Of a DNA stretch of 64,000 nt, positions 3,438 to 63,805 are shown in pieces. Position 1 is the first letter of the stretch, and each line of letters opens with the position of its first letter. Source of the DNA: Actinomycetospora corticicola (lineage in GTDB: Bacteria > Actinomycetota > Actinomycetes > Mycobacteriales > Pseudonocardiaceae). The stretch lies in NCBI RefSeq assembly GCF_013409505.1, contig NZ_JACCBN010000001.1, positions 1,054,001-1,118,000 of the forward strand, read 5' to 3'. The notes beneath the pieces were generated by a model. The model worked only from the letters and a program-made list of their open reading frames with translations. It had not been told where the DNA came from and searched no databases. The position numbers and the translations under genes are program-made.

Positions 3438-3953
3438 ATGACGACGACGGGGCGCCGGCTCGCGCTGGACGTGGAGCCGGCGGTGAACAGCACGGTCGTG
3501 ATGATGACCGTGCTGGCCCTGGCGATCGACCGCGGCGTGTCGGACTTCCGGGACGTCCTGTCGCTGAGCCTCGGCCCGCTCCTCGCCACCTTCGCGGCGC
3601 ACCTGTTCGCGACGACGCTCAAGGCGGTCCACGCCGAGCACGCCCTCCCTTCCCGACGACGGGTGCTCGGGCTGACCGGGCACGCGGCGCAGTACCTGCT
3701 GCCGGGGCTCGGGCCGCTGGCGGTGGTCGCCGTCGTCGCGGGGACGGGCTTCGCCGGAGCGGCGGGTCCGGTGGAGTCGGCGCACATCACGATCGACCTG
3801 AGCTGGATCGCCCTGGTCGTGCTCGGCGGGGTCGGCGGGTGGCGGGCGCTGCGCCGGTGGTGGGGCGCGGTCCTGGGGGCCGTGGGCGCCTTCGGGGTCG
3901 GGTTCGTCGTGCTCCTGCTGCGGGTCCTGCTCGAGGGTGGCTTCGCCACGTGA
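3438..3953 (+). CDS. Hypothetical membrane protein
   Basis: 171 aa, unrecognised. There are hydrophobic segments at about residues 18-32, 44-60, 82-100, 122-136 and 144-165, with a basic loop (LPSRRRVLG) in the middle. It starts 27 bp after the hydroxyacyl-CoA dehydrogenase and may be co-transcribed. The SRRR codons contain one of the TCCCGACGACGGG 13-mers. Its stop codon lies inside a repeat-family hairpin. No function can be assigned. Confidence 0.75.
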   Translation: MTTTGRRLALDVEPAVNSTVVMMTVLALAIDRGVSDFRDVLSLSLGPLLATFAAHLFATTLKAVHAEHALPSRRRVLGLTGHAAQYLLPGLGPLAVVAVVAGTGFAGAAGPVESAHITIDLSWIALVVLGGVGGWRALRRWWGAVLGAVGAFGVGFVVLLLRVLLEGGFAT

Positions 3954-4003
3954 GCAGAAAAGGTCGCAGTAACGACCCTCAGTGCTCACCTGCCGCAGGC
4001 ACA
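3950..4003. repeat. Dispersed 3'-end hairpin, family A, copy 2
   Basis: An outer stem GTGAGCA (3950-3956) / TGCTCAC (3983-3989) and an inner stem GGTCG/CGACC form a hairpin between two convergent genes. The tail CTGCCGCAGGCAC matches the copies at 1338 and 20051. It probably works as a bidirectional terminator. On the minus strand its right half encodes the last residues (PAAGEH) of the isomerase. Confidence 0.75.
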
Positions 4004-4704
4004 TGCTCCAGCGCCACCCACCCCTCGTAGCCCACGGCCCGCAACGACCGTAGCCACCGGGCGAGCGGCAACGACCCCGTCCCCGGGGCGCCCCGGCCGG
4101 GCGCGTCCGCGATCTGCGCGTGCGTGAACTCCGCCCCGCGGGCCGCGATCGCCGCGTCGACGTCCTCGCCGTTGACCGCCAGGTGGTAGAGGTCCGCCAG
4201 GACCCCCGCCCCCACGCCCACCCGCTCGACCAGCGCGAACGCGTCGTTCGTCGTCAGGACCGGGTAGTCGGCCATGGCCGACAACGGCTCGATCAGCAGC
4301 ACCGAGCCCTGCGCCGCGGCCGTCGCACACGCCTCGGCCAGCCGCTCCACCGCCACGTCGGACACCGGGCCCCGGCCGACCAGCGTGTTGTGCATGCGCG
4401 CTCCGAGCCGGCGTCCGATCTCCAGCCCGACCGCGAGCGAGTCGGCGAACTCCGCCGGGCGGTCCCCGACGATCCCGCGCTCACCGGCGGCCATGTCGCC
4501 GCCGAAGAGGTTCATCGCGATCAGCTCGACGCCGGCATCGGTCACGGAGGAGCAGAACGCGTCCACCTCGGCCGCGGCAGGACCTGCCGTCGGGAAGGGC
4601 CACCAGGACTCGACGACGGTGAAGCCGTCCGCGCGGGCGCGCGCGGGCCGCTCGAGCACCGGGACGTCGGGGTACCGGATGGACACGTTCACGGCGAGGC
4701 TCAC
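3979..4704 (-). CDS. Hydroxypyruvate isomerase / sugar phosphate isomerase-epimerase family protein
   Basis: 241 aa from the GTG at 4704. It is a TIM-barrel AP-endonuclease-2-like protein with acidic and histidine metal-site motifs: ELIAMNLFGGDMAAGERG near residue 65, LLIEPLS near 140, LADLYHLAVNGED near 175 and LEHVPA at the end. This fits the hydroxypyruvate isomerase branch (interconversion of hydroxypyruvate and tartronate semialdehyde), but substrate is not certain. Its GTG overlaps the aminotransferase stop as GTGA (4701-4704), so the two are translationally coupled. The pair may handle serine/hydroxypyruvate-type intermediates. Confidence 0.82.
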   Translation of the reverse strand: MSLAVNVSIRYPDVPVLERPARARADGFTVVESWWPFPTAGPAAAEVDAFCSSVTDAGVELIAMNLFGGDMAAGERGIVGDRPAEFADSLAVGLEIGRRLGARMHNTLVGRGPVSDVAVERLAEACATAAAQGSVLLIEPLSAMADYPVLTTNDAFALVERVGVGAGVLADLYHLAVNGEDVDAAIAARGAEFTHAQIADAPGRGAPGTGSLPLARWLRSLRAVGYEGWVALEHVPAAGEH

Positions 4705-5837
4705 GCGCCGAACTCCGTCAGCCGGGTCGCCAGGTCGTCGACGTCGGTGAGGTTGCCGACGCTGAACCGCATCGTCCCGTCGTCGACCGCCTGGAAGTCG
4801 CTGCCCGCCATCACCAGCACGTCCTGGTCGCGGAGGAGGGCCTGCACGACGTCGGGTGTGCGCGACACCGCGCGCGGGTGCCGGACCCAGGCGAAGAACC
4901 CGCCGAGCGCGACGACCTCGAACCCACCCGGCCGCTCGCGCATGGCCGCGGCGAACGCGTCCCGCCGCCCCGCCACCTCGGCCGCCCGCTCGGTCCGCCA
5001 GCCCTGCGCGCGGGTCAGACCGGCCCACGCCGCCTCCTGCCCGACGCGGGGCGCCCCGATGGCGACGCAGTCGAGCAGCTTGAGGGCCTGCCGACGCAGC
5101 GATTCGCCCCCGACGAGCGCGCCGACGCGGTACCCGGCCAACGCGAGGTCCTTGGAGAAGCTGTGCAGCGTGACCACGGTGTCGCGCCAGTCGGCCGCGG
5201 AGTACAGCGTGTGCGGGCCGACCGAGCGGAAGGCGCGGTAGGTCTCGTCGAGGACCAGGGCGAGGTCCCGACGACGGGCGAGGTCGGCGAAGGCCGCGAG
5301 CTCCCCGGGTGGGATGTCGACGCCGCTCGGGTTGCCCGGCGTCACGAGCACGATCGCCCGGGTGCGCGGCGAGACGAGCGCCTCGGCGTCGGCGGCGTGC
5401 GGGGTCAAGGAGGCGTCGGGCTCCACGGTCACCGGCTCGATGCCCCGCATGCGCAGCCACATGGCGTGGTTGAAGTAGGTCGGGCGGGCCACGAGCACCT
5501 CGTCGCCGGGCTCGCAGAGGGCGTCGGCGACCAGGCAGAAGGCCTGGTTGCAGCCGGCCGTGACCACCAGGTCGTCGGCGGTCACGTCCCCGCCGTGGTC
5601 GGCGCGCAGATCCGCGGCGAAGGCCTCCCGCAGGTGGGGCAGTCCGGCCTGCGCGGCGTAGCGCGCGTCCTCGGCGACGGCCGCGACGTGCTCGACGACC
5701 TCCGGGGCGGGCGGGTAGGCGGGTGCGGCGCGGGCGAGGTCGAGCAGGGGTCGGTGGCCGCCCGCCCGGCCCACGCCGTCGTAGGCGGCGGCCATCGGCG
5801 AGTCGACGCCGGCGGCGACGCGGGAGGAGAGGCGCAC
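4701..5837 (-). CDS. PLP-dependent class I/II aminotransferase
   Basis: 378 aa, fold type I. Visible signatures are TAGCNQAFCL (about 97), TPGNPSGVDIP (about 165), LVLDETYRAF (about 193) and the PLP-lysine segment HSFSKDLALAGYRVG (about 224), followed by an FSVGNL arginine-site segment near the C-terminus. The GTG start at 5837 was used. Substrate cannot be read; the class includes aspartate and aromatic aminotransferases. It is coupled by GTGA overlap to the isomerase-like gene downstream and diverges from the BVMO gene. An ARRRD stretch carries the recurrent 13-mer (5266-5278). Confidence 0.88.
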   Translation of the reverse strand: MRLSSRVAAGVDSPMAAAYDGVGRAGGHRPLLDLARAAPAYPPAPEVVEHVAAVAEDARYAAQAGLPHLREAFAADLRADHGGDVTADDLVVTAGCNQAFCLVADALCEPGDEVLVARPTYFNHAMWLRMRGIEPVTVEPDASLTPHAADAEALVSPRTRAIVLVTPGNPSGVDIPPGELAAFADLARRRDLALVLDETYRAFRSVGPHTLYSAADWRDTVVTLHSFSKDLALAGYRVGALVGGESLRRQALKLLDCVAIGAPRVGQEAAWAGLTRAQGWRTERAAEVAGRRDAFAAAMRERPGGFEVVALGGFFAWVRHPRAVSRTPDVVQALLRDQDVLVMAGSDFQAVDDGTMRFSVGNLTDVDDLATRLTEFGA

Positions 5838-5914: not shown

Positions 5915-7552
5915 ATGGGCGACGGTGATGGCGGGCACACCGATGTGATCGTGATCGGCGCCGGGTTCTCCGGCCTCTACGCCCTGCACCGGCTGCGCTC
6001 GCGCGGGTTCTCGGTGCAGGTGCTCGAGCAGGCCGACGGGGTCGGCGGCACCTGGTACTGGAACCGGTACCCGGGCGCCCGCTGCGACTCCGAGAGCTAC
6101 TACTACTGCTACTCGTTCGACCCGGAGCTCGAGCAGGAGTGGCGCTGGACGGAGCGCTACCCGGGGCAGGAGGAGATCCGCGGCTATCTCGAGCACGTCG
6201 CCGACCGCTACGACCTGCGCCGCGACATCGCCTTCGGGGTCCGGGTGTCCGAGGCCGCGTGGGACGGCGCGGGCTGGACCGTGACGAGCGAGGACGGGAC
6301 GTCCCGACGATGCCGCTGGCTGGTCACGGCGGTCGGCTGCCTGTCCGCCGCGAACGTGCCGGACATCCCGGGGCTCGCGGACTTCGCGGGGGAGTGGCAC
6401 CACACCGGACGCTGGCCGCACGAGGGCGTGGACGTGTCCGGACGACGGGTCGGGGTGGTCGGGACCGGGTCCACCGGCATCCAGGCGATCCCGGTGCTCG
6501 CCGAGGCGGCGGGGCACCTGACGGTGTTCCAGCGGACGGCGAACTACTCGATCCCCGCTCGGAACGCGCCGCTCTCCGAGGAGGAGATGACGGCGACGAA
6601 GTCCGACTATGCGGCCATCCGGCGGGTGCAGCAGGGCTCGACCAACGGCCACCCCTTCGTCCTGTCCGACGTCGACATCCTGGACCTGCCCGCCGACCAG
6701 CGTCGAGCGCTCTACGACGCCGCCTGGGAACGGGGCGGGCTCCGGTTCCGGGCGGCGGTCAAGGACGTGCTGAGCGACCCCGATGTCAACGCCGACACCA
6801 GCGAGTTCCTCCGCGAGAAGATCCGCGAGACGGTGCACGACCCGGCGACCGCCGAGACGCTGACCCCGCGGGACCACCCCTTCGCCACCAAGCGCCCGCC
6901 GATCGACACCCACTACTTCGAGACCTACAACCGGGAGAACGTGTCCCTGGTCGACGTGAAGGCGGACCCGATCGCGGCGATCACGCCGGACGGGGTGCGG
7001 CTGGAGTCCGGCGCCGAGCACCCCCTCGACGTCCTCGTCTTCGCGACCGGCTTCGACGCCCTCACCGGCCCGCTCCTCTCCTTCGACATCCGAGGACGCG
7101 ACGGGGTGTCGCTGCGCGAGGCGTGGCGGGAGGGTCCACGCACCCACCTCGGCCTCGGCGTCGCCGGCTTCCCCGACCTGTTCACCGTCACCGGACCCGG
7201 CAGCCCGTCGGTGCTCACGAACATGCCGACCGCGATCGAGCAGCACGTGGACTGGATCGCCGATCTCCTGGAGCGGCTGCGCGCGACCGGCGAGCACGCC
7301 GAGCCGACGCCCGAGGCGGAGGCGACGTGGGCGTCCGAGGTGGCCCGGGCGGCGGACGCCACGCTGCTGCCGCAGGCGGCCAGCTCCTGGTACCTGGGCG
7401 CGAACGTGCCCGGGAAGGCGCGGGTGTTCCTGCCCTACGCCGGTGGTTACGCCCGGTACCGCGCCACCTGCGACGACGAGGCCGCGGCGGGCTACCCGGG
7501 CTTCGGTCTGGCGGAGAACCGGACGAACCTCGCGAATCGTCACGCTGTGTAA
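5915..7552 (+). CDS. Type I Baeyer-Villiger monooxygenase (cyclohexanone/phenylacetone monooxygenase type)
   Basis: 545 aa, nearly the same length as CHMO and PAMO. The FAD Rossmann motif GAGFSG is near residue 14, and GGTWYWNRYPGARCD follows. The BVMO fingerprint FAGEWHHTGRWP is at about 158-169, and the NADPH motif GTGSTG near 184. The family inserts oxygen next to a ketone carbonyl to give an ester or lactone, using NADPH and O2. The start at ATG 5915 has GAGG just upstream, and longer in-frame extensions were rejected. It is divergent from the aminotransferase. The ketone substrate is unknown. Confidence 0.93.
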   Translation: MGDGDGGHTDVIVIGAGFSGLYALHRLRSRGFSVQVLEQADGVGGTWYWNRYPGARCDSESYYYCYSFDPELEQEWRWTERYPGQEEIRGYLEHVADRYDLRRDIAFGVRVSEAAWDGAGWTVTSEDGTSRRCRWLVTAVGCLSAANVPDIPGLADFAGEWHHTGRWPHEGVDVSGRRVGVVGTGSTGIQAIPVLAEAAGHLTVFQRTANYSIPARNAPLSEEEMTATKSDYAAIRRVQQGSTNGHPFVLSDVDILDLPADQRRALYDAAWERGGLRFRAAVKDVLSDPDVNADTSEFLREKIRETVHDPATAETLTPRDHPFATKRPPIDTHYFETYNRENVSLVDVKADPIAAITPDGVRLESGAEHPLDVLVFATGFDALTGPLLSFDIRGRDGVSLREAWREGPRTHLGLGVAGFPDLFTVTGPGSPSVLTNMPTAIEQHVDWIADLLERLRATGEHAEPTPEAEATWASEVARAADATLLPQAASSWYLGANVPGKARVFLPYAGGYARYRATCDDEAAAGYPGFGLAENRTNLANRHAV

Positions 7553-9163: not shown

Positions 9164-10162
9164 GTGCAGGTGTCCTGTGCCTTCCCGACCGCCCTGAGCA
9201 CGCCCGACGACATCGCGGTGGCCGAGGAGCTCGGCTACGAGCGTGCCTGGATCTACGACACACCCCAGCAGAGCCCCGACGTCTGGATGACCCTGGCGCT
9301 GGCCGCGCAGCGGACGGAGCGGATCGGCCTCGGCCCCGGCGTGCTGGTGCCGAGCCTGCGCCACCCGATGGTCAACGCCGCGGGCACCGCGACCCTCGCC
9401 GCGCTGGCCCCGGGCCGGGTCGCGGTCGCCTTCGGGACCGGGTTCACCGGCCGACGCGCCATGGGACACGGGGCGATCACCTGGTCGTTCATGGACGCCT
9501 ACATCCGGGCCTACCGCGCGCTCCTGGCGGGCGAGGTGATCGAGTGGGAGGGGGCCCGCATGCGGATGCTCCACCCCGACGGCCACGCGCCGGCCCGGCC
9601 GGTCGAGGTCCCGGTCCTCGTCGGCGCCCTCGGGCCGAAGGGCAACAAGGTCGCCAACGAGCTCGGCGACGGCCTGTTCGTGACGCTGCAGCAGCCCGAC
9701 TTCATGACCGAGTACTCCTGGGTGCCCTACCTGGCCTGGGGCACGGTGCTCGACGACGACGAGCCGCAGGACTCCGACCACGCGCGGGTGGCGGCCGGAC
9801 CGGGGTGGGCGCTCGCCTACCACGGCGCCTACGAGTTCGCGGGCGCCGACGCGGTGCGCGAGCTCCCGGGCGGGGCGGCGTGGATGGACGTCGTGGAGCG
9901 GACGTCGCCCGACGAGCGGCACCTCGCGGTGCACGCCGGGCACTGCGTGGAGCTCAACGAGGCCGACCGGGCCGCGTGGGACGCGGGCGGCCACGTGATG
10001 GTGCGCGACGCGACGCTCAGCGGCACCCGCGACGAGGTCCGACGGCGCCTCGCCGAGCTGGGCGCCCGCGGCGTCACCGAGATCGTCTACCAGCCGTGCG
10101 GTCCCGACACCCGCTCGGAGCTGGCGCGGTTCCACGAGGCGGCGGCCGGCGTGGAGTCGTAG
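9164..10162 (+). CDS. LLM class (luciferase-like) flavin-dependent oxidoreductase
   Basis: 332 aa from GTG 9164 with a clear GAGGAGG ribosome site (9152-9158). It is a TIM-barrel bacterial-luciferase-like protein: ELGYERAWIYDTPQQ near residue 23, LALAAQRTERIGLGPGV near 45, RVAVAFGTGFTGRRAMG near 88 and VPVLVGALGPKGNKVANELGDG near 150. It is likely an F420- or FMN-dependent oxidoreductase; the cofactor cannot be decided here. It converges with the alpha/beta hydrolase ten bases downstream. Confidence 0.88.
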   Translation: MQVSCAFPTALSTPDDIAVAEELGYERAWIYDTPQQSPDVWMTLALAAQRTERIGLGPGVLVPSLRHPMVNAAGTATLAALAPGRVAVAFGTGFTGRRAMGHGAITWSFMDAYIRAYRALLAGEVIEWEGARMRMLHPDGHAPARPVEVPVLVGALGPKGNKVANELGDGLFVTLQQPDFMTEYSWVPYLAWGTVLDDDEPQDSDHARVAAGPGWALAYHGAYEFAGADAVRELPGGAAWMDVVERTSPDERHLAVHAGHCVELNEADRAAWDAGGHVMVRDATLSGTRDEVRRRLAELGARGVTEIVYQPCGPDTRSELARFHEAAAGVES

Positions 10163-10171
10163 CTCCCGTCG

Positions 10172-10999
10172 TCAGGACGCCGCGCGACGGGCGTGCTGCT
10201 CGACGAGGCGGGTGAAGATCTCGGGGTACTCGAGGTTGGTCAGGTGCCCCGCGCGGGGGAGCACCGCGAGGTCGGCCACCGGGAGCGTGCGGCGCAGCAT
10301 CAGCGTCGCGTCGATGGCCTCGTCGTCGCGGTCCCCGACGACCAGCAGGGTCGGCACGGTCATCGACACCAGCCGGTCGGTGAGGTCGTAGAGCGACGGC
10401 CGGGACGCCTGGACGCCGCGCATGGTGAGCGCCGCGCCGACCGGGTCGTGCTCGGCGAGGATGCGCAGGTGCTCGTCGTGGGCGTGCTGATCCCGCTCGC
10501 GCAACGGCAGCCGCGCCGGCCGGTTGCCGTAGTCCGCGGCCACGGTGGCCGACCCGTCCCGCTCGTAGGCGTCGGCGAGCGCGAGGGCGTCCGCCCGGAA
10601 GGCCGCGGCGCGCTCCGGCGCCGCCCCGTAGCCGCAGCCCGCGACGACGAGCCCGGCGCAGCGGTCGGGGCGGGTCAGCCCGAGGTGCAGGGTCGCGAAC
10701 CCGCCCATCGAGTTCCCGACGACGAGCGCCTGCTCGATCCCCAGCGCGTCGAGTACCGCGACCGCGTCGGCCACCGCCCGGTCCTGCGAGTAGGCGGCCG
10801 GGTCGGTCGGGACGTCGGAGTGCGGGTAGCCCCGCGCGTCGTAGGTGATGCAGCGGTACCGCTCGGCCAGGAGACCGAACTGCGGCGACCACGAGCGGTG
10901 GTCGCCCCCGAACTCGTGGAGGAACAGGACCGGCGTCCGCTGCGCGGCGTCTCCTCCCGTGTCGTACACGGCCAGGCCGACCCCGTCGTCGGTCGTCAC
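10172..10999 (-). CDS. Alpha/beta hydrolase
   Basis: 275 aa. The oxyanion segment LFLHEFGGDHRSW is near residue 26, the nucleophile elbow GNSMGG at 95-100 (Ser97), and the late histidine in RAGHLTNLE near 250. The layout fits enol-lactone hydrolases and esterases such as 3-oxoadipate enol-lactonase (PcaD-like). The GTG at 10999 overlaps the LysR stop as GTGA (10996-10999), so regulator and enzyme form one transcript and translation is probably coupled. An aromatic or lactone substrate is an inference from this pairing. Confidence 0.88.
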   Translation of the reverse strand: MTTDDGVGLAVYDTGGDAAQRTPVLFLHEFGGDHRSWSPQFGLLAERYRCITYDARGYPHSDVPTDPAAYSQDRAVADAVAVLDALGIEQALVVGNSMGGFATLHLGLTRPDRCAGLVVAGCGYGAAPERAAAFRADALALADAYERDGSATVAADYGNRPARLPLRERDQHAHDEHLRILAEHDPVGAALTMRGVQASRPSLYDLTDRLVSMTVPTLLVVGDRDDEAIDATLMLRRTLPVADLAVLPRAGHLTNLEYPEIFTRLVEQHARRAAS

Positions 11000-11972: not shown

Positions 11973-13016
11973 ATGAGCACCTCGACCGCCCCGACCCGCC
12001 GTCGGGACGACCTCCGCCCGGCGCTCGCCGCGGGGGTCACCGTGCTGCTGTGGGCGTCCGCCTTCGTCGGTGTGCGCAGCGCGGGGCACGACGTCGAGCC
12101 AGGGGCCCTCGCCTTCGGGCGCATGCTGGTCGCGAGCGCGGCCCTCACCGCTGTCGTGCTGTTCCGGGGGCTCCCGACGATGCCGCGCGGACGGCGGCTC
12201 GCCGCCGTCGCGGCCTGGGGCGTCGCCTGGTTCGGCGCCTACAACCTCGCCCTCAACGCCGCCGAGACCCATCTCGACGCGGGCACGACGGCACTGCTCG
12301 TGAACCTGGCCCCGGTGCTCGTCGCACTGCTCGCGGGCCTGTTCCTCGGGGAGGGGTTCCCGCGTCGCCTGCTCGTCGGGGTCGCGATCGCCTTCGGGGG
12401 CGTCGTCCTCATCGCGGTGGCGGGGCCGGGCGGGCGGGCCGACACCGTCGGGGTCGCGCTGGGGCTGACCGCCGCGGTGCTCTACGCCGGGGCCGCGGTC
12501 GCGCAGAAGCGGCTGCTCGCGCACACCGACGCGCTGACGATGACGTGGCTGGGGTCGCTCGCGGGCACGCTGGTCACCGCGCCGTGGGCGCCGTCGCTCG
12601 CCCGCGACCTGTCCGCGGCGCCGACCGGCACCGCGCTCACCGTGGTCTACCTCGGCCTCTTCCCGACCGCGGTCGCGTTCCTGGCCTGGGGCTACGCCCT
12701 GTCCCGCACCACCGCCGGGCGGCTGGCCTCGACCACCTACGCCGTGCCGGCCCTCGTCGTCGCGCTGTCCTGGCTGCTGCTCGCCGAGGTCCCCGCACCG
12801 CTCGCGTTCGTCGGCGGTGCGCTCTGCCTGGTCGGGGTGGCGGTGTCGCGGGGGCGCAGCCGGGCCGCGCGCGACGGTGCCGGATTTCCTGACCCTGGGT
12901 GCAAGCAGCGACGCATTGCGTGCACCCAGGAGGTGCCGGGCTACCCGTGCTCGACCGCCGCCCGGCCGGCCTCGAGCCGGGCGACCGGCACCCGGAACGG
13001 CGAGCAGGACACGTAG
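11973..13016 (+). CDS. EamA/DMT family transporter with unusual C-terminal read-through tail
   Basis: 347 aa. Ten hydrophobic helices in two EamA repeats span residues 15-298, with AETHLDAGTTALLVNLAPVLVALLAGLFLGE in the first repeat and a matching segment in the second. DMT proteins export amino acids or other small metabolites. The family part ends near 12866. The frame then runs about 50 more residues through a hairpin (12894-12930) and into the 3' end of ppdK on the other strand before a TAG at 13016. That tail is not family-like and suggests a lost stop codon. Confidence 0.85.
   Translation: MSTSTAPTRRRDDLRPALAAGVTVLLWASAFVGVRSAGHDVEPGALAFGRMLVASAALTAVVLFRGLPTMPRGRRLAAVAAWGVAWFGAYNLALNAAETHLDAGTTALLVNLAPVLVALLAGLFLGEGFPRRLLVGVAIAFGGVVLIAVAGPGGRADTVGVALGLTAAVLYAGAAVAQKRLLAHTDALTMTWLGSLAGTLVTAPWAPSLARDLSAAPTGTALTVVYLGLFPTAVAFLAWGYALSRTTAGRLASTTYAVPALVVALSWLLLAEVPAPLAFVGGALCLVGVAVSRGRSRAARDGAGFPDPGCKQRRIACTQEVPGYPCSTAARPASSRATGTRNGEQDT
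12894..12930. terminator. Hairpin between convergent EamA gene and ppdK
   Basis: A perfect 10-bp stem CCTGGGTGCA / TGCACCCAGG with a 17-base loop lies between the two convergent genes, 11 bp before the ppdK stop. It is placed as a bidirectional terminator although the EamA frame runs through it. Confidence 0.7.
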
Positions 13017-15616
13017 TCCAGGCCGGCGCGGTGGAAGAAGTGCACCGAGTCGGGGTCGCCGCCGTGCTCGCCGCAGATGCCGAGCTTGAGGCCCGGACGC
13101 ACCTCCCGGCCGCGCCACGAGGCGATCTCGACGAGCTCGCCGACGCCCACCGTGTCGAGGGACTCGAAGGGCGAGACGCCGAAGATGCCGTGGTCGAGGT
13201 AGGCCGAGAAGAACGAGCTCTCCACGTCGTCGCGGGAGAAGCCCCACGTCGTCTGCGTGAGGTCGTTGGTGCCGAACGAGAAGAACTGCGCGACCTCGGC
13301 GATCTGCGCGGCCACCAGCGCGGCGCGGGGCAGCTCGATCATCGTGCCCACCTGGTGCTCGACCGGGGCGCCGTCGACCAGCGACTCCGGCTCCTGCACC
13401 ACCTCGGCGATCTCCGCCGCCACCGCCTGCAGCTCCTGCACGGTGCCGACCAGCGGCACCATGATCTCGGGAAGGACGTTCACGCCCTCCGCGGCCAACG
13501 TCGCCGCGGCCCGGGTGATGGCGCGGATCTGCATGGCGAACAGGCCCGGGACCTGGATGCCGAGGCGGACGCCGCGCAGGCCGAGCATCGGGTTCTGCTC
13601 GTGCAGGCGGCGCACGTTCTCCAGCAGCGCCTCCTGCTCGTCGGTCAGCTCCCCGCGCTCGCGGGCGACCGCGACCTCCACCGACAGCTCGGTGAGGTCG
13701 GGCAGGAACTCGTGCAGCGGCGGATCGAGCAGGCGGATGGTCACCGGGAGCCCGGCCATCGCGCGGTAGAGGGCGGTGAAGTCCTCGATCTGCATCGGCA
13801 GCAGCGCGGCGAGCGCCTTCTCGCGCTCCTCCGGGGTCTCCGCCAGCACCAGGTCCTCCACCAGCGAGCGGCGCTCGCCGAGGAACATGTGCTCCGTGCG
13901 GCACAGCCCGATGCCCTCGGCGCCGAACCGGCGGGCCAGCCCCGCGTCCTCGCCGGTGTCGACGTTGGCGCGGACCTTCATCCGTCGTCGGGCGTCGGCG
14001 TGGGCCATGATCCGGTCGACCGCGACGACGAGCTCGTCGTCGGGATCGATCTCCCCGGTCTCGAGGTAGGACACGACGGGGCTCGCCGACACCGGGATCT
14101 CGCCGAGGTAGACCTCGCCGGACGTGCCGTCGATGGCGATGACGTCGCCCTCCACGACCTCGTGGCCCGACGCCGTCGTGAATTTCTTCCCGCGGACGTC
14201 GACCTCGAGCTCCTCGGCGCCGCAGACCGCGGTCTTGCCCATGCCGCGGGCGACCACGGCGGCGTGCGAGGTCCGCCCGCCACGGCTGGTGAGCACGCCC
14301 TCCGCGGCGATCATGCCGCCGAGGTCGTCGGGGTTCGTCTCGCGCCGCACGAGGATGACCTTCTCGCCGCGCTTGGCCCACGCGATCGCGGTCTCCGAGT
14401 CGAAGACCGCCTCCCCGCCGGCCGCGCCGGGGGAGGCGTTCATCCCCGTCGTCAGGAGCTCCTTCTCCGCGTCCGGGTCGAAGCGGGGGAACATCAGCTG
14501 CGCGAGCTGGTGCCCGGTGACGCGCAGCAACGCCTCGTCGAGGTCGATGAGGCCCTCGTCGACGAGCTGCGTCGCGACGGTGAACGCGGCGGCCGCGGTG
14601 CGCTTGCCGACGCGGGTCTGCAGCATCCAGAGCTTGCCGCGCTCGATGGTGAACTCGATGTCGCAGAGGTCGCGGTAGTGCTGCTCGAGCGTGGTCATGA
14701 TGCCCATGAGCTCGTCGTAGGAGCTCTTGTCGAGGCCCTCGAGGTCGGTCAGCGGGAGCGTGTTGCGGATGCCCGCGACGACGTCCTCGCCCTGGGCGTT
14801 CTGCAGGTAGTCGCCGTAGACCCCGCGGGTTCCCGACGCCGGGTCGCGCGTGAACGCGACGCCGGTGCCGGAGTCCATCCCGAGGTTCCCGAAGACCATC
14901 GAGCAGACCGACACGGCGGTGCCGAGGTCGGCCGGGATGCGCTCCTGGCGGCGGTAGATGTTCGCGCGCTCGGAGTTCCACGAGTCGAACACCGCGCGGA
15001 CGGCGAGGTCGAGCTGCTCGCGCGGCTCCTGCGGGAAGTCCCGCCCGGCGTGCTCGCGGACGAGGCCCTTGTAGGTCTCGACGAGGGCGGCGAGGTCGCC
15101 GGCGTCCAGGTCGAGGTCGTTCTTCGAGCCCTTGGCGGCCTTGGCGGCCTCCAGGGCGTCGTGGAAGTGCTCGGCGTCGATCCCGAGGACGGTCGCGCCG
15201 AACATCTGCACGAGGCGGCGGTAGGAGTCCCAGGCGAACCGGTCGTCGCCGGCCTGCGTGGCGAGGCCGTGCACCGAGGAGTCGTTCAGCCCGACGTTGA
15301 GGACGGTCTCCATCATCCCGGGCATCGAGAACTTCGCCCCGGACCGGACGGAGACCAGCAGCGGGTCGTCGGCCTGGCCGAGGTGCTTGCCCATCGTGGC
15401 CTCGAGGGCGGCGAGGTGCTCGGAGACCTCGTCGGCCATCCCCGCTGGTTCGGCGCCCCCGGCGAGGTACGCGCGGCAGGCGTCGGTGGTGATGACGAAC
15501 CCGGGCGGGACCGGCAGGCCGAGGTTGGTCATCTCGGCGAGGTTCGCCCCCTTGCCGCCCAGCAGGTCGCGCTGGCTCCTGTCGCCCTCGGCGAAGTCGT
15601 ACACGAACTTGGTCAT
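12941..15616 (-). CDS. ppdK: Pyruvate, phosphate dikinase
   Basis: 891 aa from ATG 15616, preceded by GGGAGGG; longer frames were rejected. It converts pyruvate, ATP and phosphate to PEP, AMP and PPi, or the reverse. The N-terminal ATP-grasp domain starts LLGGKGANLAEMTNLGLPVPPGF. The phosphohistidine domain has GGRTSHAAVVARGMGKTA near residue 448. The C-terminal PEP/pyruvate barrel has EGIGLCRTEHMF, MIELPRAAL, FFSFGTNDLTQ and LGICGEHGGDP. It lies back-to-back with the aceE-aceF-lpd operon, so the two diverging units control both directions at the pyruvate node. Confidence 0.97.
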   Translation of the reverse strand: MTKFVYDFAEGDRSQRDLLGGKGANLAEMTNLGLPVPPGFVITTDACRAYLAGGAEPAGMADEVSEHLAALEATMGKHLGQADDPLLVSVRSGAKFSMPGMMETVLNVGLNDSSVHGLATQAGDDRFAWDSYRRLVQMFGATVLGIDAEHFHDALEAAKAAKGSKNDLDLDAGDLAALVETYKGLVREHAGRDFPQEPREQLDLAVRAVFDSWNSERANIYRRQERIPADLGTAVSVCSMVFGNLGMDSGTGVAFTRDPASGTRGVYGDYLQNAQGEDVVAGIRNTLPLTDLEGLDKSSYDELMGIMTTLEQHYRDLCDIEFTIERGKLWMLQTRVGKRTAAAAFTVATQLVDEGLIDLDEALLRVTGHQLAQLMFPRFDPDAEKELLTTGMNASPGAAGGEAVFDSETAIAWAKRGEKVILVRRETNPDDLGGMIAAEGVLTSRGGRTSHAAVVARGMGKTAVCGAEELEVDVRGKKFTTASGHEVVEGDVIAIDGTSGEVYLGEIPVSASPVVSYLETGEIDPDDELVVAVDRIMAHADARRRMKVRANVDTGEDAGLARRFGAEGIGLCRTEHMFLGERRSLVEDLVLAETPEEREKALAALLPMQIEDFTALYRAMAGLPVTIRLLDPPLHEFLPDLTELSVEVAVARERGELTDEQEALLENVRRLHEQNPMLGLRGVRLGIQVPGLFAMQIRAITRAAATLAAEGVNVLPEIMVPLVGTVQELQAVAAEIAEVVQEPESLVDGAPVEHQVGTMIELPRAALVAAQIAEVAQFFSFGTNDLTQTTWGFSRDDVESSFFSAYLDHGIFGVSPFESLDTVGVGELVEIASWRGREVRPGLKLGICGEHGGDPDSVHFFHRAGLDYVSCSPFRVPVARLEAGRAAVEHG

Positions 15617-18632: not shown

Positions 18633-18667
18633 CGCCGCCCGCCCCTGTCTAGCGAGGTCATCCAACG

Positions 18668-20073: not shown

Positions 20074-20096
20074 CACGTCCATCGAAAGGTTCCGGA

Positions 20097-34215: not shown

Positions 34216-34263
34216 GGTCGGGACCCTGCTCGCGCCGACTCGTCGTCGGGACCGGGGAACTAC

Positions 34264-48866: not shown

Positions 48867-49643
48867 GTGTCCGTCCTGTCCGCGTTCGCCGACGCGCTGC
48901 GCTCCGGAGCGGTGGAGGTCGTCGACCTCACCACGCCGCTGCAGTCCTCGACGCCGATCCTGGAGCTGCCGGAGCCGTTCGCGAACACCTCGCGCTTCCG
49001 GCTCGAGGAGCTCTCGCGCTACGACGACCGCGGGCCCGCCTGGTACTGGAACGACATCCACACGGGCGAGCACACGGGCACGCACCTCGACGCCCCCAAC
49101 CACTGGGTCACCGGGCGGGACGGGCCCGACGTCTCCCAGGTGCCGATGCGGACCCTCGTCGCGCCCGTCGTCGTGATCGATCGGACCGCCGAGGTGGCCG
49201 CCGACCCCGACTTCCTGCTCGAGGTGTCCGATCTCGAGGCGTGGCAGGCCGAGCACGGTCCGCTGCCCGACGGCGGATGGCTGCTCTACCGCACCGGCTG
49301 GGAGGCCCGCGGCGGGACGCAGGAGGAGTTCGCCAACGCGGACGAGGCCGGCCCGCACACGCCGGGCGTGTCCGCGGCGTGCGCGCGCTGGATCGCCGAG
49401 GAGTCCCCGCTCGCCGGGTTCGGGGTGGAGACGGTCGGCACCGACGCCGGTGCCGCCGGCGGGTTCGACCCGCCGTTCTCCTGCCACCACTTCCTCATGG
49501 GCGCGCACAAGTGGGGCTTGACCAGCCTGCGCAACCTCGGCCGGGTCCCGACGACGGGCGCGGTGCTGGTGGTCTCCCCGCTCCCGATCGTCGGCGGTTC
49601 CGGGTCGCCCGCGCGGGTCCTGGCGCTGGTCGAGCGCGCGTGA
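48867..49643 (+). CDS. Cyclase family protein (kynurenine formamidase-like)
   Basis: 258 aa from GTG 48867 with GAGGAG six bases upstream. The metal-binding signature HTGTHLDAPNHW is at about 70-81. DLTTPLQSSTPILELPEP opens the fold, and VGTDAGAAGGF with SCHHFLMGAHKWGLTSLRNL closes the active site. The family covers metal-dependent amide or lactone hydrolases (KynB, isatin hydrolase). Its TGA overlaps the next gene's GTG (49640-49643), so it acts with the ThDP enzyme. Substrate unknown. Confidence 0.9.
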   Translation: MSVLSAFADALRSGAVEVVDLTTPLQSSTPILELPEPFANTSRFRLEELSRYDDRGPAWYWNDIHTGEHTGTHLDAPNHWVTGRDGPDVSQVPMRTLVAPVVVIDRTAEVAADPDFLLEVSDLEAWQAEHGPLPDGGWLLYRTGWEARGGTQEEFANADEAGPHTPGVSAACARWIAEESPLAGFGVETVGTDAGAAGGFDPPFSCHHFLMGAHKWGLTSLRNLGRVPTTGAVLVVSPLPIVGGSGSPARVLALVERA

Positions 49644-52253: not shown

Positions 52254-53002
52254 TGCACCAGGTGTGGCCGCTGCCGGCGGGGGAGCTCTCGGCCGGGCAG
52301 CTGGAGGAGCTGTACACCTATCCGCAGCACGACGGCGGGTGGGTGACCGTCAACTTCGTCAGCTCCCTCGACGGCGGGATCGAGATCGACGGGACGAGCC
52401 GGGGGCTCTCCTCCGACGCCGACCGGAAGGTCTTCGGACTCGGCCACGACCTCGCCGACGTCGTGCTGCTCGCCTCCGGCACGGCGGTCGCCGAGGAGTA
52501 CCCGGGCCTGCGGCCCGAGGGGGAGTCGGCCCGTCGTCGGGAACGGCACGGGCTGGCCGAGGTGCCGCCGCTCGCCGTCGTGACCTCCGGGTCGCTGCCG
52601 GCGGACGCGCCGAGCATCGTCGACGTCCTGGTGCCGACGATCGTGATCACGTGCGCGTCCGCGCCGGCCGAGAAGCAGCAGGCGTGGAAGGACGCAGGCG
52701 CGGAGGTGCTCGTCGCCGGTGACGACGACGTCGACCTGGTCGACGCGGTGCGGCAGCTCGCCGAGCGCGGTCTGCGGCGGATCGACTGCGAGGGCGGCCC
52801 GGGCCTGACCGGCAAGCTCCTCGCCGCCGACCTCGTCGACGAGATGCGGATCAACTTCGTGCCCACCGCCGTCGCCGGGCAGGCGGGCCGGGTGGCCCGC
52901 ACCGACGACCCGCTGGACTCGCCACGCGGGTTCACCGTCGACTCGTTGCTGGTCGAGGACTCGACGATCCTCGTCCGGTACCTGCGCGCCCGCTCCGCGT
53001 GA
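52253..53002 (+). CDS. RibD C-terminal-like (pyrimidine/pterin) reductase family protein
   Basis: 249 aa, a DHFR-fold RibD_C protein: WVTVNFVSSLDGGIEIDGTSRGLSSDADRKVFGLGHDLADVVLLASGTAVAEEYPGL near residue 24, and RRIDCEGGPGLTGKLLAADLVDEMRINFVP near 178. Relatives reduce ribosylamino-pyrimidines in riboflavin synthesis or related pteridines. It directly follows and overlaps the DHPS homologue, suggesting a shared pterin or flavin-type step. SARRRE carries the 13-mer (52530-52542). Confidence 0.86.
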   Translation: MHQVWPLPAGELSAGQLEELYTYPQHDGGWVTVNFVSSLDGGIEIDGTSRGLSSDADRKVFGLGHDLADVVLLASGTAVAEEYPGLRPEGESARRRERHGLAEVPPLAVVTSGSLPADAPSIVDVLVPTIVITCASAPAEKQQAWKDAGAEVLVAGDDDVDLVDAVRQLAERGLRRIDCEGGPGLTGKLLAADLVDEMRINFVPTAVAGQAGRVARTDDPLDSPRGFTVDSLLVEDSTILVRYLRARSA

Positions 53003-53103
53003 GGGGAACCCTCGAGCCGTAAGAGCGCTCGAATCCTCCCCTCACGATCCGCTCGCCACCATTCCGGCCCACGGTGTCGGACCCCTCTGTCACCATCGTG
53101 ATC

Positions 53104-54075
53104 ATGACGACGGGGGTGGCACAGCGGCGCGGGGTGGAGGTCCTCGCCGTCGTGCTCGTGGTCGCACTCGGGCTGCGGGTGCTCGGGGTCGACCCGCTGG
53201 TCACGCCGCAGCTGCGGGTGGGGGCGACCGTCTTCGTCGCGGTCGTCGTGCAGGCGCTGCCGTTCCTGGTGCTGGGCGTCCTGCTGTCCGGTGTCCTCAC
53301 CGCCTACGTCTCGCCGGCGGCGCTGCGGTGGGTGCTGCCCGCCCGGACGGGGGCGGCGGTCCCGGTCGCGGTGGCCGCCGGGGTGGCGCTGCCGGGCTGC
53401 GAGTGCGCGTCGGTGCCGGTGGCCCGGCGCCTCGTCGGGCGCGGGGTGCCCGACGCGGTGGCGCTGGCCTTCCTGCTCGCCGCGCCCGCGGTGAACCCGA
53501 TCGTCCTCGTCGCCACCGCCGTCGCCTTCCCCGGTGCCCCGGAGATGGTGGCGGCCCGCTTCCTCGGCTCCTTCCTGACGGCGAGCGTGGTCGGGTGGGT
53601 CTGGGCCCGTGCGGGTCGCGCGGAGTGGATGGCCGAGCGGGTCCGGCGGGTCCCCGCGGCGGGTGCCGGTCCCCGCTGGCGGGTCGCGGCCGCCACCGCG
53701 CGGCACGACCTGGTGGACGCGGGCGGTTTCCTCGTGCTGGGCGGCCTCGTGGCGGCGGTGCTCACGACGGTCGTGCCGGAACGCTGGGTGGCCGGTCTCG
53801 GCGAGCAGGTGGTGCTCGCCGTGCTCGTCATGGCCGTGCTCGCCGTGGTGATGTCGTTGTGCAGCGAGGGCGACGCGTTCGTCGCCGCCTCCCTGTCGGC
53901 GCTGCCGCTGCTCCCGCGCCTGGTGTTCCTCGTGGTCGGGCCGGCCGTCGACCTGAAGCTGATCGCCCTGCAGGCGGGCACCTTCGGGCGCGGCTTCGCC
54001 GCCCGGTTCGCGCCGTTGACCTTCGTGGTCGCGGTGCTGTGCGGCGTCGGCGCGGGCCTGGTGGTGGGGCTGTGA
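53104..54075 (+). CDS. Permease, DUF318/YraQ-like
   Basis: 323 aa from ATG 53104; a GTG at 53074 gives ten more residues. Two sets of four helices with the conserved LPGCECASVPVARRLVGRGVP near residue 96 and VMSLCSEGDAFVAASL near 250. The paired cysteine motifs are typical of this permease family, whose members include ArsP and YcgR-like proteins. It forms a unit with the TIGR03943-like gene 34 bp downstream. The cargo, possibly a metal, is not known. Confidence 0.88.
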   Translation: MTTGVAQRRGVEVLAVVLVVALGLRVLGVDPLVTPQLRVGATVFVAVVVQALPFLVLGVLLSGVLTAYVSPAALRWVLPARTGAAVPVAVAAGVALPGCECASVPVARRLVGRGVPDAVALAFLLAAPAVNPIVLVATAVAFPGAPEMVAARFLGSFLTASVVGWVWARAGRAEWMAERVRRVPAAGAGPRWRVAAATARHDLVDAGGFLVLGGLVAAVLTTVVPERWVAGLGEQVVLAVLVMAVLAVVMSLCSEGDAFVAASLSALPLLPRLVFLVVGPAVDLKLIALQAGTFGRGFAARFAPLTFVVAVLCGVGAGLVVGL

Positions 54076-59001: not shown

Positions 59002-59004
59002 CCC

Positions 59005-59775
59005 TCAGCGGGGCACGCGGATCAGCACCTCGCCGTGGGGCAGGGAGAACCAGCCGTCGGGGTGGGCGGCCCAGTGCCGCCAGCCCGCGGCGACGTCGGC
59101 CAGTTCCTCGCGGGTGGCGAACCCGCCCGCGACCGCCCGCTCGGCGATCGTGGAGTCGACGATCCGCTCGGCCCACTGCCCGCCCCACCACGCCCGTTCC
59201 TCCGGCGTCGCGTGGCACCAGATCGACGCGCTCGGCGTGACGTCCCCCGCACCCGCGGCGTGTGCCCAGGCCAGCACGCGGCGGCCCGCGTCGGGCTCGG
59301 TCCCGTGGGCCCGGGCGACCCCGCGGTAGATCGCGAGCCAGCGGTCGAGCCGCGGGTCGTGCGGGTACAGCACCACCCCGGCGTAGTCGCAGTCGCGGAC
59401 GGCGACCAGCCCACCCGGCGCCGTCACCCGGATCATCTCGCGCAGGGCGGCCACCGGGTCGGTGAGGTGGAGCAGCACCTGGTGGGCGTGGACCACGTCG
59501 AACGGTCCGTCGGGCAGCGCGGACACGTCGCCGACCCGCGCGTCGACCCCGAGCGCCCGGGCCTTCTCCACCACTCCGGGGTCGCTGTCGATCCCGAGGA
59601 CCGAGCCGACCCGCGTCGCCAGGTCCGCGGTGATCGTGCCGGGACCGCACCCGACGTCGAGAACCCGCATGTCCGCCCGCAGGTGCGGTGCGAGGTAGGC
59701 GGCCGAGTTGTCGACGGTGCGCCACGTCTGCGAGCGCAGGACGCTCGCGGCGTGGCCCTGGGAGTACGCGGTCAC
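59005..59775 (-). CDS. Class I SAM-dependent methyltransferase
   Basis: 256 aa from GTG 59775; a GTG six bases upstream would add two residues. SAM site [16 protein letters not shown] near residue 39, acidic LGIDSDP near 62, and [30 protein letters not shown] near 92-120, as in UbiE/Methyltransf_11 proteins. The acceptor is unknown. It converges with trkA three bases away and is divergent from selO. Confidence 0.9.
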
Positions 59776-61192: not shown

Positions 61193-62312
61193 CGAGGCCG
61201 ACGCCGACGACGCCGCACAGCAGGCCGAACGCCGCCAGCAGGACCGGCAGGCCGAGCGCCGTCACCAGGGACCCGACGACGATCGGCGCGCCCACGGCAC
61301 CGAGGGCGCCGACCACCATCGCGGCCGACAGCGCGCGGCCCGGGTCGGAGGTCGCCACGCTCCCCGTCCAGACGGCGAGCGTGGCCGCCCCGACCATGTA
61401 GGGCGCGGCGAACACCACCGCGGCCAGCAGCGCGATCACCGGCGACCGTTCGCCCAGGGCCAGGAGCAGCAGGGCCACCCCGATCGTCAGCAGGCAGCAG
61501 GCCGCGACCCGTGGCGGCCCGATCCGGGCGGTCATCGCGCCGGTGAACAGGCCCGCGAGGCCGAGCACGCCGATGATCACGAACAGCAGGGGCCGGACGC
61601 CCGCCGACAGGCCGGCGCGGGTGGCGACGTCGGCGCTGTAGGTGAAGGCCACCGCCGTCCCGGCCTGGTAGACGATCGCGTACAGGGCGGGTGCGCGGAG
61701 CGCCCGCCACGGCATCGGGCGGCGGTCGGCGACCGGGGTGGGCGGGACGGCGGGCACCCAGCGCAGGTTGAGCAGGGCCGCGAGCGTGGAGCACACGGCC
61801 ACCGCGGCCCAGGCCGCCCGCCAGGTCGTCGCGGCGGCGACCGCCACGATCGCGACCAGCACCAGGCCCCCGCACGTCCCGGTGCTGATGATCGAGAGCA
61901 GGCGGGGTCGGCGTTCGCGGGCGACGAGGGCCGCGGCGAGGTCCGAGTACGGCGCCCACACCCAGCCCGCGGCGCTCCCGGCGAGCACGGCCCCGACCGC
62001 GAGGACGCCGGGCGACGGCGCCAGCACCACGATCAGCGCGCCCAGCGCCCCACAGACACCGCCGACCGTCGTCGGGGTGCGCGGTCCGCGGCGGGCCGCC
62101 AGGAGCGGCGCGCCGACGATCCCGGCGAGAAAGCCCGCGAACGTCCCGCCGGCGATGAGCCCGAGGACGGCCTCCGGCACCCCCGTCGTCGAGAGCCCGG
62201 GGTCGACGCGGAGGTCCGGCAGCGTGAGCCCGAAGCAGAACCGGCCCATGCCGAAGGCGACCCCCACGACGGCCGCCCCGGCGATGGCCACCCGCGTCTC
62301 CGTCGTCCGCAC
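61173..62312 (-). CDS. MFS transporter, YbfB/YjiJ type
   Basis: 379 aa from GTG 62312, about twelve helices in two sets. [17 protein letters not shown] near residue 18 is typical of YbfB/YjiJ proteins. The loop [22 protein letters not shown] separates halves. Cargo unknown. Longer upstream frame was rejected. It is followed by overlap with the selO end. Upstream lies a family-B hairpin. Confidence 0.88.
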
Positions 62313-62325
62313 GCGATCACCCTGT

Positions 62326-62378
62326 CGAGCGAGCGGCCCGTTCGCAGCATCTATGGGCGTGAGAGTGCCGTTCGCTCG
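62326..62378. repeat. Dispersed hairpin, family B, copy 2
   Basis: CGAGCGAGCGGC (62326-62337) and GCCGTTCGCTCG (62367-62378) pair at 11 of 12. Between them TCGCAGCATCTATG matches copy 1 at 21889 (reverse strand). The right arm and part of the loop code for the end of YibE/F. Confidence 0.75.
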
Positions 62379-63805
62379 GAATCCGCCGTCCCGGAGCGGG
62401 CCACGACCGCCGCGACCAGCGTCGTCACCGGCACGGCCGCGACGATGCCGATCGACCCGACGAGGGTGCGCAGCACCTCCTGGGCCACGTCCTCGGCGGT
62501 CAACAGGTCGCCGACCCCGCGCCCGGAGAGCGTGAACAGCAGCAGGAGGGGCAGCGCCGCACCCGCGTAGGCGAGCACGAGCGTGTTCACCGCCGAGGCC
62601 ACGTGGTCGCGCCCCACGCGCATCGCCGCCGCGTAGAGCTCCCGCGTTCCCGACGACGGGTCGGCGCGGTGGAGCTCCCAGACGGTCGAGGTCTGGGTGA
62701 CCGTGACGTCGTCGAGCACCCCGAGGGCGCCGATGATCAGTCCGGCGAGCAGGAGCCCGCGGGCGTCGATCCCGGCGCCAAGCACGCCGATCAGCTCCGT
62801 GGACGCGTCGTCCAGTCCGGTCAGCCGAGTGAGCCCGCCGAACACCAGCGCGAGCACGCCGATGAGGCCGAGCGAGACGACCGTGCCCAAGGCCGCGGTC
62901 GCGGTCCGTGCGGAGAAGCCGTGGATCGTCGGGAACACCACCGCCACGATCAGTCCGGATGCGACGAGCGCCACCGGCACGGGGGAGGACCCGGTGAGCA
63001 GCGCCGGGAGCACGAACAGGCCGAGCACGAGCAGCGTGATGCCGAGGGCGCCCAGCGCGGCGAGCCCCTGCCAGCGCCCGAGCAGCACGACCGCGAGCGC
63101 GAACACCCCCGCGAGCAGCAGCAGCGACCCGCCGCGCTGCCGGTCCACCACCTGGTAGCCCGAGGCGTCGGCCGGGTCGCCCCCGGACCACGCGACCACG
63201 ACGGCGTCCCCGTCGGCGAACCGGGGCGTCGCGGGCCCGCCGGGCAGCAGGGTGTCGATCGTGCGGCCCGACGCGGGGCCCTCGTCGAGGCGGACCTGCA
63301 GCGGGAAGCAGCCGGTGCCGGCCTCGACGGCGAGGGTCGGGTCGGAGCAGTCGGCCTCGGCGCCCGCGCGCACGACGGTGCCGTCGAGCGGCTGCGTGGC
63401 CACCGCGGCGGCCGCTCCGCTCGTGGTCCCGGCGGCCGACCCCGCGGCCGCGGCGTGGCTGCCGTCGAGGACCGCCCGGTACTCCGAGGGCGACGGCGCG
63501 AGCAGCACCAGCCCCACGAGCACGGCCAGCCCGCAGGGCACGAGCAGCACGGCCAGCAGGCGCCGGACGGTCGTCCCGACGGCGGGTGCAGGGCCGTGCC
63601 CGTGTCCGTGGCCGTGACCGCCCTCTCCGCGCGCCGCACCCCGCCGCGCCGGCGCGGCGGCCCGTCGTCGGGCCCCGGACCGGGACCGCCGAGCCGGGCG
63701 AGGGGCACCCCCGCCCGGTCCCGGTGCGCGGGCGGGCCGGCCGGTCGTCCCGGGGGTGGGCCGCTGCGCGGGGATCGGCGCCGTCACCGGGTCGTCGATG
63801 TCCAT
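62351..63805 (-). CDS. YibE/F family membrane protein with His-rich N-terminus
   Basis: 484 aa. A disordered basic Pro/Arg N-terminus (1-60) holds HGHGHGHG near residue 64, one helix (about 85-103), an outer domain with two cysteines (ADCSDPTLAVEAGTGC), then seven or eight helices with LGVLDDVTVTQTSTVWELHRADPS and RVGRDHVASAVNTLVLAYAGAALPLLLLF as in YibE/F. The His tract suggests metal binding; it lies 17 bp after a metal ATPase gene. Its last codons, ERTALSRP, are formed by the family-B repeat. PSSG carries the 13-mer (62648-62660). Confidence 0.92.
   Translation of the reverse strand: MDIDDPVTAPIPAQRPTPGTTGRPARAPGPGGGAPRPARRSRSGARRRAAAPARRGAARGEGGHGHGHGHGPAPAVGTTVRRLLAVLLVPCGLAVLVGLVLLAPSPSEYRAVLDGSHAAAAGSAAGTTSGAAAAVATQPLDGTVVRAGAEADCSDPTLAVEAGTGCFPLQVRLDEGPASGRTIDTLLPGGPATPRFADGDAVVVAWSGGDPADASGYQVVDRQRGGSLLLLAGVFALAVVLLGRWQGLAALGALGITLLVLGLFVLPALLTGSSPVPVALVASGLIVAVVFPTIHGFSARTATAALGTVVSLGLIGVLALVFGGLTRLTGLDDASTELIGVLGAGIDARGLLLAGLIIGALGVLDDVTVTQTSTVWELHRADPSSGTRELYAAAMRVGRDHVASAVNTLVLAYAGAALPLLLLFTLSGRGVGDLLTAEDVAQEVLRTLVGSIGIVAAVPVTTLVAAVVARSGTADSERTALSRP

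Follow-up and report, generated by a model that had tools for sequence, protein, structure and literature searches.

The question raised by this locus is why one 13-base word, TCCCGACGACGGG, recurs throughout a 64,000-nucleotide stretch of the Actinomycetospora corticicola chromosome (positions 1,054,001 to 1,118,000 of contig NZ_JACCBN010000001.1, hereafter the window). The reading we prefer, with a probability of roughly 0.38, is that TCCCGACGACGGG is a self-DNA tag spread by a drive like that of uptake signals. The window holds ten exact copies, both strands together, and 20 more with one mismatch; these 30 compare with a mean of 1.32 and a largest value of 6 in 100 dinucleotide shuffles. 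All ten exact copies lie within predicted genes (our own gene call), in three same-strand and two opposite-strand frames, where they are read as SRRRV, ARRRD, ARRRE, RPDDG, HPDDG, LPDDG, VPTTG or DPSSG. An initial annotation of this DNA had listed nine copies inside genes, in several reading frames and with differing peptides. Eight of its positions are right, a copy at 26399 was overlooked and 49556 should be 49546; the location within genes (10/10), the use of several frames (five) and the variety of peptides (eight distinct ones) were all seen again, and each of the four near copies that it named, at 14033, 23917, 25739 and 34239, is a one-mismatch copy. An Rfam search of the window gave no match.

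In the whole single-contig genome (6,166,488 bp), TCCCGACGACGGG occurs 668 times, 331 and 337 by strand, which is an excess of about a hundredfold over chance, and its reversed control has no copy in the same 6.17 Mb. The degenerate form TCNNGACGNCGGG, with ten specified positions, has 2,551 copies (1273/1278 by strand), or 0.41 per kb. Given a GC content of 74% in the window and a word that is itself GC-rich, chance, codon usage or repeated peptides have to be weighed as its source, the more so as one frame, reading P-D-D-G, holds 31 of the 60 coding exact copies found in a continuous 478-kb part of the chromosome surrounding the window. This region contains 68 exact copies, the other 8 lying between genes. 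Synonymous-codon shuffles within its 454 predicted genes give a mean of 1.28 and a maximum of 5 coding copies (60 shuffles), and shuffles conditioned on the next amino acid a mean of 1.42 and a maximum of 3 (60 shuffles), against the 60 observed. Codon- and dipeptide-preserving shuffles and a count in the rest of the genome were the checks that the initial annotation had proposed, and the excess stands in both.

Comparison of 18 Actinomycetospora genomes separates three tiers. Exact copies are numerous in the window's genome (668), A. chiangmaiensis (577), A. soli (516), strain NBRC 106378 (446) and A. termitidis (396), intermediate in A. endophytica (96), strain TBRC 11914 (82) and a metagenome-assembled genome (MAG) that is 59% complete (40), and between 0 and 12 in the remaining ten. 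Counts of TCNNGACGNCGGG are 2,551, 1,959, 1,930, 1,883 and 1,845 in the five genomes of the high tier, 597, 528 and 332 (the MAG) in the three of the middle tier, and 83-164 in the ten of the low tier, with reversed controls totalling 13-41 per genome. The closest relatives of a window protein, at 85-95% identity, are found in Actinomycetospora sp. NBRC 106378, A. soli, A. chiangmaiensis, the MAG, TBRC 11914, A. termitidis and A. endophytica. When the genomes are ranked by AceE bit score, those of the high tier stand nearest to the window, followed by the two genomes of the middle tier that have a full orthologue; the MAG gives only a partial 54% match. No enrichment is seen in 190 genomes of other genera of the same family (at most 8 exact copies) nor in 395 other sampled genomes of the phylum (at most 7). 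The earlier description of the word as a lineage-specific iterated oligomer is therefore well founded, the enrichment being confined, among the genomes searched, to part of Actinomycetospora. Site occurrence does not correlate with core versus accessory DNA.

These counts also bear on the trivial explanations. The ten poor congeners have nearly the same composition as the window's genome (73.6 vs 74.0% GC in the sampled DNA), and together with the codon shuffles they rule out that the excess comes from chance, codon usage or repeated peptides. The other four genomes of the high tier are draft assemblies in about 30-70 contigs, so that the finished assembly is not the cause of the enrichment, and sites are conserved between species; an assembly artefact is likewise ruled out by contig counts. 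We consider this whole class of explanations to have a negligible probability.

TCCCGACGACGGG is the consensus of a site of roughly 14 bp. In 464 kb of the window's genome, where an order-4 Markov model predicts 0.6 exact copies, there are 62; copies with one change number 133 against about 15 expected. The changes fall mainly at positions 1, 3, 4, 9, 11, 12 and 13, with only 3 of the 133 at positions 2, 5, 6, 7, 8 and 10. C2, G5-A6-C7-G8 and C10 are thus almost invariant and define a strict, asymmetric C..GACG.C within a preferred extended form close to CSTTCCCGACGRCGGGTSSG, which is near-palindromic. The pattern TC..GACG.CGGG reaches 28 times the level of the non-enriched congeners, with 379 occurrences in 818 kb against 18.5 scaled from them, whereas the core GACG.C alone is not enriched (0.95 times their level). 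Variants of the 10-position core with G12A or G13A are themselves in excess over the same 818 kb (102 vs 31.3 and 41 vs 9.9 expected, respectively). The low-GC stretch L001 was excluded from the congener ratios, the weight matrix and the 818-kb counts, and L108, L109 and two clipped stretches from the 818-kb counts. Refinement of the weight matrix by expectation maximization led away to another, palindromic model, and fixed-pattern counts took its place. The graded profile of strict and tolerant positions fits a putative sequence-specific DNA-binding protein. Among the matches listed for the 14-mer in viral contigs (at least 120 stretches), each of 80 entries holds a single match.

Sequence comparison establishes that a force acting at the DNA level maintains this lineage-specific, binding-site-like word. 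Third codon positions inside sites differ from A. chiangmaiensis at 41 of 417 positions against a codon-matched expectation of 135.4 (30%; z -10.8), from A. soli at 42 of 290 (98.6 expected) and from A. termitidis at 50 of 190 (71.2 expected); the deficit against A. endophytica (29 of 86, 35.3 expected) is not significant. Gapped positions were excluded here. Codon positions 1 and 2 in sites diverge near the genome average. Whole sites are retained in 75 of 124 cases in A. chiangmaiensis, compared with 39% of 821 control sites, in 44 of 83 in A. soli (38% of 505) and in 23 of 52 in A. termitidis (29% of 237); control patterns were counted only with at least five aligned sites, which left 63, 44 and 25 of 150 permuted patterns for the three relatives. 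Decoys with one strict base changed lie nearer to background in A. chiangmaiensis, with a mild deficit left (44/203 vs 58.9; z -2.5), and tolerated one-off copies show a ratio like that of the decoys with a firmer deficit (121/629 vs 173.8; z -5.0). Because the pattern of strict and tolerant positions resembles that of a binding site and the decoys diverge near background, we suggest that a putative protein reads the site. The initial annotation had claimed that selection or copying acts on DNA and not on protein, and had pointed to synonymous sites in relatives as the place to look; their conservation and the codon shuffles both support the claim.

Copies originate through varied substitutions in place. 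Gaps of at least ten bases occur at sites in 1 of 133, 0 of 90 and 0 of 58 comparisons with three relatives (1 of 281 overall), and the sites are therefore not inserted units; gaps of any length are somewhat commoner (9/133, 7/90 and 6/58) than the roughly 3% at random 13-mers. For 22 gap-free sites of the window's genome that are present in neither A. chiangmaiensis nor A. soli, 16 substitutions could be polarized, and they comprise 8 types at 7 motif positions. With few long gaps and with new sites differing by substitutions, the idea that the word was copied as an inserted unit is disfavored. Repetitive extragenic palindromic (REP) sequences, bacterial interspersed mosaic elements (BIME) and other small dispersed repeats also have many short near-palindromic copies, but they are inserted, mostly intergenic elements, whereas 188 of 226 TCCCGACGACGGG-type sites lie wholly in predicted genes and the long gaps are as rare as stated. 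Four-species parsimony on 56 patterns gives 12 gains and 2 losses in the window's lineage, 3 and 5 in A. chiangmaiensis, and 1 and 4 in A. soli, so that the build-up of sites looks recent in the window's lineage, on small numbers and rough parsimony. Sites with a gap in a relative were excluded from the retention, parsimony and substitution analyses.

The mode of origin bears on the comparison with the highly iterated palindrome HIP1 of cyanobacteria that had been drawn for this word. Such an account would have methylation-guided or other biased repair turn near-matches into the motif, which would have no present function. In behavior the analogy holds: parts of PMC4390886 describe HIP1 and alternate HIPs as lineage-specific, highly iterated words whose function is unsettled and whose flank preferences are extended in some genomes, with fast loss and gain, and going with cognate methyltransferases. 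As with HIP1, it is the long word that is enriched here (28 times) and not its core (0.95). However, the HIPs of the same source are palindromic and tied to methyltransferases, and HIP1 has 8 bp, whereas TCCCGACGACGGG has 13-14 bp or more, its extended form is near-palindromic only and its strict positions, C2, G5, A6, C7, G8 and C10, are asymmetric. The gains seen above, 8 substitution types at 7 positions, do not amount to one repair-favored change, and the m5C methyltransferase PF00145, the only methyltransferase family tested, does not follow the motif, having members in 2 of the 8 genomes that are enriched and 4 of the 10 that are not. The specified length of the site also exceeds that of known methyltransferase sites. 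We regard an origin of this kind as improbable.

On the chromosome, 188 of the 226 sites are wholly coding, 29 intergenic and 9 partial. Frame use is uneven, with P-D-D-G the commonest peptide, and all six frame-orientation classes are present. With the origin set by dnaA at 4.537 Mb, slightly more sites of the sampled stretches lie on the leading than on the lagging strand: 214 vs 178 of the degenerate form (p 0.077) and 66 vs 48 of the exact copies. Part of this surplus may come from gene orientation, as 107 sites lie on the same strand as their gene and 81 on the opposite one. The surplus and the asymmetry of the strict C..GACG.C speak for an oriented signal resembling the FtsK-orienting polar sequences (KOPS), Chi or TraB repeats, which an FtsK-like or RecBCD-like motor would recognize in one direction. 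KOPS, Chi and the TraB recognition repeats are short asymmetric words on chromosomes or plasmids, oriented or carried on mobile elements; KOPS and Chi have 8 bp and a strong strand bias. By contrast, TCCCGACGACGGG is spread chromosome-wide and near strand-balanced: its surplus on the leading strand is not significant, and the whole-genome strand counts, which do not separate replichores, are equal (331/337 and 1273/1278). An oriented segregation or recombination signal, recombination being one of the roles first suggested for the word, is thus disfavored by near-equal strand use and in our opinion very improbable. Restriction avoidance, also suggested, would deplete a word, and this one is enriched.

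A closer rival is a chromosome-organizing protein, that is, a clade-specific nucleoid-associated, condensation or segregation protein that would bind the sites, with weak direct selection keeping up the density of binding. The near-palindromic form, approximately CSTTCCCGACGRCGGGTSSG, the strong synonymous conservation and the dispersal of near orientation-neutral sites in coding and intergenic DNA alike are all consistent with such a protein, and the relaxed consensus resembles the binding sites of intracellular proteins, a contrast drawn in a section of PMC1626085. Nevertheless, density shows no significant regional pattern: its correlation with distance from the origin has rho 0.12 and p 0.43 over 43 stretches. 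Six stretches lying less than 1 Mb from the origin do have a lower density, 0.29 sites per kb against 0.44-0.60 elsewhere, perhaps because their genes are more conserved. Sites are spaced nearly at random; one 478-kb region has fewer neighbors within 1 kb (70) than random placements (85.4, sd 5.6), and the deviation has mixed signs when pooled over five species. The word is dispensable in ten sister species, and an organizer predicts no particular drive. To our knowledge, none of the known chromosome-organizing proteins has a 13-14-bp word enriched to thousands of copies within genes. On balance we find this explanation rather unlikely, close as it comes. The two 5-kb segments below 66% GC, both in L001 (G000:C1:1-20000), carry no site. 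This stretch has two blocks of about 59-60% GC in the 74% GC genome, at ~2-8 kb and 14-20 kb, possibly two neighboring ribosomal RNA operons.

The self-DNA tag that we prefer takes its model from the DNA uptake sequences (DUS) of Neisseriaceae and the uptake signal sequences (USS) of Pasteurellaceae. Parts of PMC3630211 and PMC1626085 describe these as clade-specific words dispersed in hundreds to thousands of copies, in genes and on either strand, which originate in place by point mutation and have a short strict core in a longer preferred word. The sites studied here are likewise high-copy, dispersed and orientation-neutral, inside and between genes (668 copies; 331/337; 188/29/9), and come from point mutation rather than insertion (gaps of at least ten bases, 1/281). 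In the proposed mechanism, a putative clade-specific DNA-binding protein would read the site of roughly 14 bp and favor DNA that bears it during import, transfer or recombination. Fragments with the site would then replace homologous alleles without it, so that molecular drive, proposed for uptake sequences too, would multiply the word. Such a drive would explain the clade restriction, the strand neutrality, the origin by point mutation and the recent growth without separate selection on some 2,400 sites. Import itself exists in actinobacteria, since, in the portion of PMC4322843 that treats it, transformation of Micrococcus luteus requires Flp/Tad pili and a comEA/EC locus is present. In Actinomycetospora, 16 of the 18 genomes carry ComEC, among them all 15 of at least 90% completeness, and the two that lack it are incomplete. 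Directly upstream of it, the three loci checked (two enriched genomes, one non-enriched) encode a ComEA-like protein with SLBB and helix-hairpin-helix domains.

Several observations weigh against this reading. The relaxed consensus and the lack of recognized pilins argue against membership in DUS or USS. Uptake signals have a strong consensus, perfect copies far outnumbering singly mismatched ones (PMC1626085, in part), whereas the 13-mer has 62 exact against 133 one-off copies, and for the 10-position core the excess in the 818 kb amounts to about 361 perfect and about 386 one-off copies. Uptake signals are also said, in the same part of PMC1626085, to be somewhat regularly spaced, while the Actinomycetospora sites are spaced close to a Poisson process. 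They further differ from DUS and USS in belonging to another phylum, in a density of 0.41 rather than close to 1 per kb, and in having neither a recognized pilin family among the 18 genomes nor a similar dialect in sister species, no word similar to TCCCGACGACGGG being found in 413 kb sampled from non-enriched congeners. The type IV pilin model N_methyl (PF07963) matches none of the 18 genomes, and neither does TadE (PF07811), a weak silence because the TadE model matched only 1 of 14 control genomes. Because ComEC is common to enriched and non-enriched species, competence genes do not explain the tiers. Divergence at third positions is flat from 7 bp outward (0.235-0.278, no dip), and since it does not drop near sites no trace of site-linked exchange between these species is seen. 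Of 21 sites of the window's genome aligned with A. endophytica, only 2 are present in that species. Finally, we know of no report of transformation in Actinomycetospora; a loose literature search turned up no paper naming the genus, which does not settle the point.

Self-recognition or iterated signals have been described for Neisseriaceae, Pasteurellaceae and cyanobacteria (PMC3630211, PMC1626085 and PMC4390886, each in part). Neither TCCCGACGACGGG itself nor a comparable iterated word, uptake sequence or motif of Actinomycetota was found in the literature searched. The uptake-like tag may be, as we propose with clear reservation, the first self-DNA recognition code of Actinomycetota: a 14-bp tag that has thousands of copies in the genes of one Actinomycetospora clade and goes on accumulating in the window's lineage, that a putative new class of non-pilin recognizer reads, and that displays three stages of its build-up in living sister species. 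With background, intermediate and high tiers within one genus, the start and spread of uptake-like words, by drive or by selection, become testable on real stages, and the strict core with its decoy control provides a ready bait for the putative reader protein.

The first exact copy in the window, at 3651..3663 (+), lies in the gene at 3438-3953 (+), is read as SRRRV and is missing in the A. chiangmaiensis, A. soli and A. termitidis orthologues. Those at 5266..5278 (+; ARRRD) and 23512..23524 (+; ARRRE) lie on the opposite strand of the genes at 4701-5837 (-) and 23382-24101 (-), the latter copy being retained in A. soli and not in three other relatives, where the alignment is poor. The previously unlisted copy at 26399..26411 (+), read as RPDDG in the gene at 26202-26510 (+), is retained in A. 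soli and has one change in NBRC 106378. Within an acyl-CoA dehydrogenase gene (Pfam; 27182-28969, -), the copy at 27794..27806 (-; HPDDG) is retained in NBRC 106378 and A. chiangmaiensis and altered in five others; within a PucR-type regulator gene (Pfam; 30028-31296, -), that at 31255..31267 (-; RPDDG) is retained in NBRC 106378 and altered in three others. The copy at 35896..35908 (+), in the gene at 35597-36118 (+) and read as LPDDG, is retained in A. termitidis and altered in three others. The remaining three are at 49546..49558 (+; VPTTG) in the gene at 48867-49643 (+), at 52530..52542 (-; ARRRE) on the opposite strand of the gene at 52253-53002 (+), and at 62648..62660 (+; DPSSG) on the opposite strand of the gene at 62351-63550 (-).

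Degenerate copies accompany them along the window. On the forward strand they are TCCTGACGGCGGG at 2623..2635, in a 3-hydroxyacyl-CoA dehydrogenase gene (Pfam), TCCGGACGACGGG at 6437..6449, TCCCGACGCCGGG at 14831..14843, TCACGACGACGGG at 24080..24092, TCGCGACGGCGGG at 24254..24266 and 24545..24557, TCTCGACGACGGG at 33847..33859, TCACGACGGCGGG at 34179..34191, TCATGACGACGGG at 53102..53114 and TCCCGACGGCGGG at 63574..63586, which is outside predicted genes. The reverse strand carries TCGTGACGCCGGG at 5335..5347, TCCAGACGTCGGG at 9275..9287, TCCTGACGACGGG at 10165..10177, outside predicted genes, and again at 14445..14457, in a gene for a phosphoenolpyruvate (PEP)-utilizing enzyme (Pfam), TCCCGACGGCGGG at 11995..12007, TCCCGACGCCGGG at 41268..41280, TCGTGACGTCGGG at 47910..47922, TCACGACGACGGG at 49164..49176, TCTCGACGTCGGG at 59650..59662 and TCTCGACGACGGG at 62182..62194. 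Of the tolerated one-off variants, G12A occurs at 14033..14045, 25739..25751 and 34239..34251, all on the reverse strand, and G13A at 23917..23929 on the forward strand.

The top pooled words of the non-enriched congeners are probably aceE stretches common to several loci, or a clustered repeat. A palindromic repeat built on AGCGAGGGACGCC occurs in the non-enriched genomes G205 and G118; it is REP-like and, unlike TCCCGACGACGGG, clustered. Its copies lie at ~4873-5080 of stretch L115, spaced by 85 bp, and at ~14257-14400 of L121 and ~3864-3990 of L133, spaced by roughly 30-105 bp, with single copies also in L129 and L190. In the window itself, genes for pyruvate dehydrogenase (E1, E2 and a lipoyl-bearing E3; Pfam) occupy 15900-21881. 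Relatives of this E1 at 85-96% identity are found in 10 of 17 congeners; five others have only homologues of about 54%, the incomplete genome G203 a partial 54% match, and the incomplete genome G206 a 54% homologue with two fragments at 82 and 90%. The window-type E1 gene seems to have been lost or replaced in part of Actinomycetospora.

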